DNA from: Helicobacteraceae bacterium
Lineage (GTDB): Bacteria > Campylobacterota > Campylobacteria > Campylobacterales > SZUA-545
DNA length: 56,703 nt
Assembly (NCBI GenBank): GCA_031260125.1
Contig: JAIRKM010000009.1
Location: 1-56,703 of the forward strand
Direction: 5' to 3'
The translations under genes were made by a program, and so were the position numbers. Positions within the stretch are counted from its first letter, which is position 1. Every line of letters starts with the position of its first letter. This document shows, one piece after another, positions 33,795 to 37,498 of this stretch. A model generated the notes under the pieces. That model made no database searches. It worked only from the letters and a program-made list of their open reading frames with translations, and was not told the origin of the DNA.

Positions 33795-35953
33795 TTAAAA
33801 GTCGGCGTTGAAGGCGACGGTAAGCCTTCTGCCATCGATAAACCTGCCGTGTGTAGCACTCGTTACCTCCTCGTTGCTGACGTTATAAACGCCCGCTAGA
33901 AGTTTCAAGCCGTCCCTCAAGCGAATAACCGTTCCAATATCAGCGGTGTCGTAGCCAATGTTGTCGGTAAGGCTAGTTTGCGTGGTTACCCTGCCATAGC
34001 CGTATGATTTCTGTTCGCCGATGTGGTTGTACTGCACCCAGATGTTGAACCTATCGTTGATCTCAAAATCGACGTTCGCGTTAAACATCTTCTTGGGGGT
34101 TCCGCTTATGGGTTTGTTTTTGAGAATGCCGGTTTTTTGCTCGCTGTGCGTATAGGTATAGGTAGCGCCTAACGAGACGATCGACGGCAGATGGTAGCTC
34201 AAGGAGACCTCTACCCCTTCGATAACCGCTTTATCGACGTTTTCGTATCTCGCTACAGACCGATATTGGTTATACGCGCCAAACGAGCAGTTGTTCAATC
34301 CGCCGCTGGAGCATAGATTCATCAGCACTATCTTATCTTTGTAGTCGGCGTGGTGAGCCGTTACGCTCGCGCCAAGACCGGTCGCCTTGTCGGAATAGTT
34401 TATGGAGGCTTCGTAGCTTACGCTAGTCTCCGGCTCTATATCGGGATTGCCCGCCGTTATGCACGGGTGGTTGGCAGGGCAACTTCCGCCGCCGGTAACG
34501 CCGCCAAAGTCTTTTGCGTATTGTCTTAGATTGGGGCTTTTGTATCCGCTGGAAACGCCGCCTTTTAGCGTTATGCTGTCGGTTATGCCATAGACTAGAT
34601 AGATGCGCGGATCGACATGCGTTCCAAAACCTTCGCTATTGTTAAATCTAACGCCGCCCGTTAAAGACAGATCGTCCGTTACGCTCCATTCGTCTTCGGC
34701 AAAGAGGGCGTAAGACCATCGTTCCATAATATTGGACGGATTGGCAACGGCTGGCAGCCCGTTCGTGGCGCGATCGTTAAGCTCTTCTTTCTTGTACTGC
34801 CCGCCAACAGACAAAATGTTTGTCTCAAAGAAGTATGTTCCCTGCGTATTGAGCGTTAGCGCCTCGTAGTCGATACCATCTCCCCTTGAAGGGTTTTCGG
34901 AGACGGCGTTTTGGATATAGGTCTTCACCGTAAGGTTGTCTAGCTTCAGATCGTGTCCGGCGGAAACGGTCTGTTTGATCGCTAGGCTTTCGGACGTTAT
35001 ATTGAGTCTAGTAACATTTCCGTCATTCACGCTTTTGCCGTTTGTGGTAAGCCTTCGCTGTTTTGAGTAGTCGTAACCCGCCCACACGCTGTTGGCTTCG
35101 TTGATAGAGAGGATCGTCTTTACGCCAAACTGTCTGGTGTCAAACTGTGGATTGGACGACGCGGATTTGCCTCCGCCGACCATGGTGCTTTCATCAACGC
35201 CCAAAACCGATCCGTAGGTCTGCAAGGAGAGCCGATCGGCTATAACCGGACCCGCTAGATTGAAACCTCCCTGATAGCCGTTTTCACTAAGATCGTTGTA
35301 CGACTTCGTGTATTCGCCTTTGACGCTGCCTGACCACTCACGCGGGACTTTTCGCGTGATAATGTTGATCACGCCGCCCATCGCTTCCGATCCGTAGAGA
35401 GAGGACATAGGCCCCCGCACGATCTCGATGCGCTCGATCATAGAAATGGGAGGCAGAGAGTTTGTGGCGATACCGCCGGACATACCGTTAGGGCTATGCG
35501 CCTCGTTGCCCGCCATTGGCTTGCCGTCGATCAGGTAGAGCGTGTAGCCGCTGCCCGTGCCGCGAATGGAGATGTCCTTAAAGACCGAGCCGGCCTCGAC
35601 ATAGATACCCGGCACATTTTTAAGAACGTCCGTCAGATCGTTGAATGACCTGTTTTCTAGGTCTTCCCTGCTGATCACATAGACGCTTGCGGGAGCGTCG
35701 ATTATGTTTTTCTCGTAACCGGTCGCGCTGACAAATATATCGTCCAGCCGCTCCGCCGCGCCTTGCGCCGTTTTGTCGTCGGATGACGCCGCCGCGTCCT
35801 GTGTCGTTGGGGTGCTTGAGAGCGCTGCCGCGTCTTGTTCTGACGAGGTGTCCGAGAGTGTCGTATCGACATCATCAGCGGCTATGAGCGCCCCCCCCCC
35901 CCTGATATTAGCAAGCCGATCAAAACGGCTGCGAGTCTGCGCCTTTTGGCCAT
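33795..35953 (-). CDS. TonB-dependent outer-membrane receptor, phase-variable by a poly-G tract; OFF as sequenced
   Basis: The true start is the ATG at 35953: AAGGAG lies 6 nt ahead and the peptide MAKRRRLAAVLIGLLIS is a signal sequence. A 12-G tract follows (mRNA sense), after which this frame stops at TAG, giving 23 residues. One base of shift opens the frame ALIAADD… and continues without a stop through a TonB-box-like segment (DDIFVSATGYEKN), the plug domain (NVPGIYVEAG, ISIRGTGSGYTLYLIDG, IEIVRGPMSSLYGSEAMGGVINI) and a 22-strand barrel ending in Phe. Ten or thirteen G would give a full ~718-residue receptor. Likely substrate is an iron siderophore or haem, by context only. The shift could also be an assembly error in the homopolymer. 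Confidence 0.88.
35891..35902. repeat. Homopolymer of 12 C (12 G on the coding strand) inside the receptor signal peptide
   Basis: Twelve consecutive C, far longer than any other GC homopolymer in the window. It sits after codon 17 of the receptor gene. Lengths of 10 or 13 keep the gene in frame; 11 and 12 give stops within a few codons (25 and 23 residues). Slipped-strand mispairing at poly-G tracts is the standard contingency mechanism in Campylobacter and Helicobacter. Confidence 0.92.
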
Positions 35954-35990
35954 GTTTTCTCCTTATACAGAGTGTTGTGGATTACGATCA

Positions 35991-36008
35991 GATACGATTA
36001 CAATAATC
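35991..36008 (-). promoter_or_regulatory. Fur-box-like site upstream of the TonB-dependent receptor
   Basis: Read on the minus strand, GATTATTGTAATCGTATC matches 12 of 18 positions of the Fur consensus GATAATGATAATCATTATC. It lies 38 nt before the receptor ATG, in promoter position. Iron-dependent repression is expected but inferred. Confidence 0.45.
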
Positions 36009-36099
36009 GGTCTCACAATCGTTGCGCCATAGTAGCAGAATAAACTTAAAGATCTAAGTCGTTTAAACCAAACGCGCCTTTGATCTTTTACTCCGCTAC

Positions 36100-36118
36100 G
36101 ATTATGATAATCGTTTCA
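36100..36118 (+). promoter_or_regulatory. Fur-box-like site upstream of the PepSY protein gene
   Basis: GATTATGATAATCGTTTCA matches 14 of 19 positions of the Fur consensus, including the core ATGATAATC. It lies 51 nt before the chosen ATG, followed by a plausible −10 (TATGCTA, ~36134). This site is also the main reason to reject the longer open frame, which would put the operator inside coding sequence. Confidence 0.6.
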
Positions 36119-36169: not shown

Positions 36170-37498
36170 ATGAACAACGTTTTTTTTCTCCGCTTCCGCC
36201 ATTTACTGGACTGGCTTTATCTCCGCTTCCGCCGTTTGCTGGGCTGGACGCAGGGCGGATTTGCGAAAAGAGGGTTTTGGTTTCAGATACATTGGGTTGT
36301 GGGCGCGGCGCTCGGCGTGGTTATCGCCATCGTGGGCGTTACGGGCGCGGCGCTCTCGTTTAGAGGCGAAATAACCAACCTTCTAAACAGGGACGTTGTG
36401 TATGTAGAACCAAACGGCGGAGAACCTTTAGCTTTGGACGAGCTTCTGACAAAGGCAAGCGCCGCTCTGCCAAACTCGCGGATCGGCTCAATTTCACTTT
36501 TTAGCGATCCGACAAGAACGGCGCGGCTGAGCGTAAGCGACGCAAACTCGACCAATATGAGAGCTAGAGGCAGAACGCAGTATGTCAATCCATATACGGC
36601 TGAAGTAGCGCCTTACAAATCTATGAAAGGCGAGGCGTTTTTCTCGACGATGTTCAGTCTGCATCGGTGGATGGGCGACTCGACGCGCACGTGGGGAAAA
36701 CAGCTAGTCGCCGCCGCGACTGTGGCTTTGATTGTGCTTTCGCTCTCCGGATTGTACATGTATCTGCCGTTTATGAAGCACAGCTTTCGCAAATCTCTCA
36801 AGGTCGATTTTCGTCAAAAGGGCAGGATATTTCTATACAGACTCCACTCGGCTTTTGGGGTGTGGACGCTGATCTTTGTGCTGTTTATGTCGTTTAGCGG
36901 GCTGTGGTGGTCTTATGGCTGGTATCGAGACGGGCTTATATGGCTTTCCGGCGTCGATCCGGCGAGCATGCAAAGAGGCGCTCCGCCGCCGCCGACTCAG
37001 GCGCAAGGCGCGGCAGGGACAGGAGCGCCGATGGCGGATCGCGGATCGCGCGGCGCGGCAGAGGGCGCAAATAGGGCAAATAGCGGCGAAGCGATCTACC
37101 GCGGTATGGCGAAAGCCTACGATCTTTTCAGGGAAACGGTGGAGCGCGATTACACCAGCGTTACCATTCAAGCGCCTCAAGGCGGTAGTATCTATAGTAT
37201 CAGCTATTCGCCCCTAAACCCAGCCCATAGCAGAGCGAGCAACCAGCTTCAAGTTGACGTTGAGAAAAACGAGGTGGTAAAGCACGTCAAGTATGACGAT
37301 AAGACGCTTGGCGAGAAATTTATAAGCAGCATATTCCCCCTGCACAGCGGGGACTTTTTTGGCGTTACGGGATTGATACTGTTTTGCGTCTCAAGTTTGG
37401 TAATGGCGCTATTTGCCATTACGGGGTATATGCTCTACTACGAGCGGTTTATAAGGAACAGGAAGAAAAAAGCCAGATGGCGGATTGCGCGGTCGTAG
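36170..37498 (+). CDS. PepSY-associated transmembrane protein (PiuB-like), iron-uptake linked
   Basis: About 442 residues, starting at the ATG with AAAGGAGG 6–8 nt ahead and downstream of the Fur-like site. Four membrane helices: FQIHWVVGAALGVVIAIVG near residue 45, QLVAAATVALIVLSLSG, a third at LHSAFGVWTLIFVLFMSFSG, and a fourth near the C-terminus (LILFCVSSLVMALFAITGY). The PepSY-type extracytoplasmic domains lie between. Conserved His residues in helices (IHWVVG, SLHRWMG, LHSAFG, PLHSGDF) suggest haem ligation, as in PiuB-type proteins thought to reduce imported ferric complexes. A Pro/Ala/Gly-rich linker (~275–315) is unusual. Divergent from the receptor gene. Confidence 0.85.
   Translation: MNNVFFLRFRHLLDWLYLRFRRLLGWTQGGFAKRGFWFQIHWVVGAALGVVIAIVGVTGAALSFRGEITNLLNRDVVYVEPNGGEPLALDELLTKASAALPNSRIGSISLFSDPTRTARLSVSDANSTNMRARGRTQYVNPYTAEVAPYKSMKGEAFFSTMFSLHRWMGDSTRTWGKQLVAAATVALIVLSLSGLYMYLPFMKHSFRKSLKVDFRQKGRIFLYRLHSAFGVWTLIFVLFMSFSGLWWSYGWYRDGLIWLSGVDPASMQRGAPPPPTQAQGAAGTGAPMADRGSRGAAEGANRANSGEAIYRGMAKAYDLFRETVERDYTSVTIQAPQGGSIYSISYSPLNPAHSRASNQLQVDVEKNEVVKHVKYDDKTLGEKFISSIFPLHSGDFFGVTGLILFCVSSLVMALFAITGYMLYYERFIRNRKKKARWRIARS

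Follow-up and report, generated by a model that had tools for sequence, protein, structure and literature searches.

Phase-variable iron receptors are already known from Neisseria, where the haemoglobin receptor systems hmbR and hpuA carry poly-G tracts in the reading frame (PMC3786947, PMC3352162) and the measured phenotype matched the state predicted from poly-G length (PMC3786947). Neisseria fetA, a phase-variable siderophore TonB receptor, is likewise under homopolymer control (PMC5953494, PMC13293289), but its tract is poly-C, listed as intergenic, and acts outside the reading frame (PMC5953494). Contingency genes of Campylobacter and Helicobacter (for example in Helicobacter bizzozeronii, PMC3234257) resemble the locus described here in their long poly-G/C runs near gene starts, their mismatch-repair-deficient order and their slipped-strand frameshifts; these sets differ in being dominated by surface-structure genes. 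No report of a TonB receptor with a poly-G switch in Campylobacterota was found in the open-access literature. The locus examined here shares with hmbR and hpuA an in-frame poly-G tract whose length modulo 3 would set the ON or OFF state, and hmbR too encodes a TonB-dependent receptor; the lengths at which Neisseria hpuA is ON (7, 10, 13, 16 and 19) follow the same arithmetic. It belongs to another phylum, its predicted product is of the CirA-like siderophore type rather than a haemoglobin receptor, and its tract lies in the receptor's signal peptide. HpuA, for its part, is a lipoprotein that partners the TonB receptor HpuB. What appears to be new is a probable poly-G receptor switch in Campylobacterota and its unusual breadth; the mechanism is known from Neisseria.

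The window, a stretch of 56,703 nucleotides, is contig C26 of the 1.64-Mb genome G000 of a Helicobacteraceae bacterium (87 contigs, completeness estimate 100%). Among named genomes the closest are MAGs that bear the label Helicobacteraceae bacterium or Campylobacteraceae bacterium; their isolate codes include Iy174_bin57 and Gsp477_bin128. These MAGs probably stem from a termite-gut survey (PMC9137090).

The initial annotation had read one gene of the window as a TonB-dependent receptor, and the plug, barrel and TonB box were all found. Pfam matches to Plug (PF07715, 1.2e-27) and to the TonB_dep_Rec barrel (PF00593, 3.2e-49) were both above cut-off. The closest solved structure by sequence was the E. 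coli colicin I receptor CirA (PDB 2hdf and 9nn6; E 1.5e-81), aligned over nearly its full length, and the top curated NCBIfam models were those of the ligand-gated channel, IreA and CirA families. As the equivalog cut-off was reached for none of the NCBIfam models listed (549 vs 942 bits for the best, NF010038, and 315 vs 745 bits for CirA), the homology allowed a refinement to a CirA/IreA-type receptor, not filed as CirA itself, whose ligand is probably a catecholate siderophore. To our knowledge, homopolymer phase variation is not known for CirA of E. coli. The dN/dS ratio was 0.155 in comparison with the nearest orthologue (77% identity) and 0.169 for the second nearest; at a ratio of about 0.15 and with 697 codons intact, the gene is under purifying selection, as had been supposed from its otherwise undamaged plug and barrel. 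The intact frame and low dN/dS together argue that the OFF state described below is not a long-term loss.

Exactly 12 G were confirmed at 35902-35891 of the minus strand, within the signal-peptide codons (Table 1). The sequence upstream of ATG 35953 on this strand is TAAGGAGAAAAC, with the Shine-Dalgarno (SD) motif TAAGGAG, and this ATG, annotated from the outset as having a strong ribosome-binding site, is the only start with a good one. The frame that it opens translates as MAKRRRLAAVLIGLLISGGGGRS and ends at a stop after 23 residues. Directly after the G12 run the minus strand reads CGCTCATAG, and the receptor frame, one base out of phase with the ATG, is open for 697 residues with zero internal stops; the early stop and the continuous frame of about 700 residues had both been described correctly. 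Tract lengths of 7, 10, 13 or 16 (3k+1) put the ATG in frame with the receptor, in keeping with the earlier proposal that 10 or 13 would join the leader to it. At such lengths the tract encodes two to five glycines where the hydrophobic core ends, after LLIS and before ALIAA, and the most hydrophobic stretch of the signal peptide is untouched by them. Because the tract lies just before the probable cleavage site, the Gly3-Gly4 stretch of the ON state would be cleaved off along with the signal peptide, with no change to the mature receptor.

Table 1 Features of the receptor locus (positions in the window)
Feature	Position	Strand	Basis or remark
Receptor reading frame past the tract, ALIAADD...ADF, stop TAA 33797-33795	33795..35890	-	
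Plug domain PF07715	35370..35702	-	Pfam
TonB box LDDIFVSA, 3' of tract	35724..35747	-	Alignment
G12 homopolymer, candidate length switch	35891..35902	-	OFF at 12, ON at 7/10/13/16 by frame arithmetic
ATG (35953-35951) and first 17 signal-peptide codons, MAKRRRLAAVLIGLLIS	35903..35953	-	
Shine-Dalgarno AAGGAG serving the ATG	35959..35964	-	Sequence
Two AT-rich palindromes like Fur boxes	35996..36118	.	Strand unassigned; 14/19 at 36100-36118, 13/19 at 35996-36014
Divergent PepSY_TM gene, likely ATG 36170	36170..37498	+	PF03929, 4.3e-63

An alternative start past the tract was sought and rejected. Between the tract and GTG 35678 the receptor frame contains no ATG, GTG or TTG, and this GTG lies inside the plug, so that a product made from it would have neither signal peptide nor TonB box and no ordinary restart would save a receptor with both. 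The TonB box, being downstream of the tract, would be lost whenever translation stops early. Homopolymers of this kind are not expected from composition: in dinucleotide shuffles of the window the G9 pattern had a mean of 0.07 matches and none reached four, and about 0.19 runs of at least 12 are expected in the 1.64-Mb genome vs about 22 in the tract loci examined. No Rfam elements were found in the window. The receptor gene is arranged head to head with a gene of the PepSY_TM family, which often adjoins iron-uptake receptors, and both Fur-like palindromes fall between the two. They are only weakly predicted as Fur boxes upstream of the receptor because 15 similar sites occur across the window; two within about 220 bp exceeds expectation.

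Tract lengths in related genomes ranged from G8 to G14 and included both ON and OFF alleles, these being differences between species and paralogues, with one genome per species. Orthologues carried G14 (L028, ON), G11 (L029, ON) and G13 (L030, OFF), and in L032 the contig begins near the tract site. Its site varies: L029 and L030 have the tract ahead of the hydrophobic stretch, the window gene has it within the signal peptide, and in L028 it comes past the signal peptide. Distant cousins had G11 OFF, G8 ON, G14 OFF, G9 ON and G14 OFF, and a tract in the signal peptide was present in cultured Aliarcobacter vitoriensis (G9, OFF) and cultured Helicobacter apodemus (G13, OFF). A pair of G007 paralogues with identical first 37 residues differed in having G14 and G8, and L059 reads GGGGAAGGGG at the position matching the tract. 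The initial annotation had held that homologues with no tract and a different start would refute a switch; this applies in part, since tract-free orthologues do exist (L031, L061 and L063), but these intact alleles stand alongside tract-bearing ones.

A total of 25 tract-bearing receptors were collected, and the 24 that could be scored comprised eight ON and 16 OFF, an approximate ratio since L148 and L115 were scored from less certain starts. One third ON is as expected of a free-running switch with random phase. The window gene has the properties of a contingency locus, namely an over-long homopolymer in coding sequence, a frame that can be restored, ON and OFF lengths in relatives, and a gene that is intact and selected. 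It is very probably a translational phase-variation (contingency) locus, OFF as assembled. The original reading of a phase-variable gene that is OFF as sequenced therefore remains the best supported, given the intact selected frame, the ON and OFF tracts in relatives and the similar tracts of cultured isolates.

The proposed mechanism would begin with replication slippage, by which a G is gained or lost in the tract. Only at 3k+1 lengths would translation from the SD-led ATG run through the signal peptide into the receptor, any other length giving a short dead-end peptide, and a population would be a mixture of receptor-plus and receptor-minus cells. Transcription is probably under iron control as well. 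The benefit may lie in shedding a receptor exploited by phages, colicin-like toxins or siderophore conjugates; from the precedents of CirA and FhuA, we infer that sensitivity to phages and colicins may be tied to the switch. MutL was over the cut-off in none of 60 relatives taken order-wide, vs 11 of 14 controls, and its absence would permit slippage. Loss of MutL was rejected as an explanation for the presence of tracts in some genera only, as no relative was over the cut-off, whether tract-rich or tract-poor. Within the order, long G tracts occur frequently in three families only (the relatives concerned being G024, G027, G044, G058, G071 and G083, families f11 and f14) and are absent or rare elsewhere, despite the order-wide absence of MutL.

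Long homopolymers can give transcriptional slippage, and an alternative is that the switch is not heritable, with slippage of RNA polymerase or the ribosome on the G run always yielding some full-length receptor at any DNA length. OFF alleles, which outnumber ON alleles, would then not be silent. We consider this explanation unlikely, as the ON share of one third looks unconstrained and the phenotype of Neisseria hmbR and hpuA agreed with the state predicted from poly-G length (PMC3786947); RNA slippage would in any case be compatible with slippage of DNA. It is also quite improbable that the tract was miscounted in sequencing or assembly, its true length being in frame and the gene always on. 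Short-read assembly may misjudge a 12-base run, the genome is in 87 contigs with nearest named relatives that are MAGs resembling short-read assemblies, and nine of the 25 tracts lie within 500 bp of a contig end vs 5% expected. This crowding, however, fits length heterogeneity and repeat-driven assembly breaks alike, as real length heterogeneity would also crowd tracts at contig ends. A run of about 12 G without MutL would be expected to slip even if the count were off by one, and the receptor tracts are spread over eight ON and 16 OFF states. Furthermore, the cultured isolates L093 and L109 are out of frame at the same place, and cultured isolates with the same arrangement argue against a quirk of assembly. 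Finally, a decayed pseudogene, its frame broken once and the gene now dying, is hardly credible: the gene is OFF in the assembly, as are the genome's three further receptors with tracts, but the 697 codons have no other lesion, dN/dS is about 0.15, a good SD and start are retained, and relatives have the same arrangement and ON alleles.

Slippage of DNA at the tract, the reading that we prefer, would concern more than one receptor of this genome. Five genes with a plug domain were found. In four of them a run of 12 or 14 lies no more than about 300 bp upstream of the plug; these are the window gene (G12), a gene on C48 with C12 in its leader, and genes on C52 and C56, in each of which a G14 directly follows the TonB box. 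In the assembly all four are OFF, with a chance of about 0.2 if each were ON with probability 1/3; four of four OFF would also fit relaxed use of receptors in this host. The switch on C48 is less certain because an ATG lies in frame 3' of its tract. A tract was also sought in the leader of the fifth receptor and none was found there; instead, a G14 lies upstream, at about C8:3591-3604, in an SD-led short ORF (L172, G000 C8:1-6000). This short ORF is followed by a Peripla_BP_2 binding-protein gene and then by the fifth TonB receptor gene, and at a length of 12 or 15 its stop would fall in an ATGA overlapping the binding-protein start. Coupling of the short ORF to the binding-protein gene is only suggestive because each has its own SD, and the relatives showed no tract in the upstream sequence available.

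Across the six tract-rich genomes of the family, tracts of at least 11 were present in 17 of 31 TonB receptors (0.27 expected), with per-genome probabilities of receptor tract enrichment from 8e-9 to 0.04; in the four tract-free genera of the family, tracts were present in none of 20 receptors. In L185 the glycine stretch past the TonB box is kept with A interruptions (GGGGGAGGGGGAGGA), as if the receptor were locked ON. We lean towards a broader proposal, that in a gut-type lineage of Campylobacterota most of the TonB import repertoire has been placed on separate poly-G/C switches, single cells drawing random sets of receptors. The switch sites would be the signal peptide, the linker directly after the TonB box, or the leader ahead of the signal peptide; different families would have acquired the tract on separate occasions at, or close to, one position in the signal peptide, and some alleles would be locked ON.

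Other tracts of genome G000 lie in genes of different kinds. At least nine genes whose leaders resemble one another (L001, L002 with its tract at 1917-1930, L004, L005, L012, L021, L022, L024 and L025) form a family with poly-C of 9-16 just ahead of a lipoprotein-like signal peptide, FLTRSLIGLVSSVLFVSLLIVGC, and the members scanned contain RCC1 or GLUG repeats. L001 (C15) alone stays open into the protein when translated from the SD-led ATG, so that eight of the nine look OFF. Poly-G runs were also observed in a glycosyltransferase 2 gene, three methyltransferase-like genes and a GDP-mannose dehydratase/epimerase gene (L006, L007, L009, L020 and L026), which are the usual kinds of surface-glycan target of the Campylobacter type. 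In L010 (C37:468-477) a G10 falls where a TetR-family regulator binds DNA; the assembled sequence is in frame here, and this regulator is possibly phase-variable. The contig of L018 (C57:1-90) opens with 64 C, an interruption and 20 C, probably an assembly artefact.

Annotation pipelines will label receptor genes such as these pseudogenes and so miss part of the iron-uptake repertoire. Work on phase-variable iron receptors has so far centred on human Neisseria, for which immune evasion is commonly invoked. That most TonB receptors appear to be switched in Campylobacterota that likely inhabit insect guts suggests another driver, for which phages, bacteriocins, toxic siderophore conjugates and a shifting supply of siderophores are candidates.
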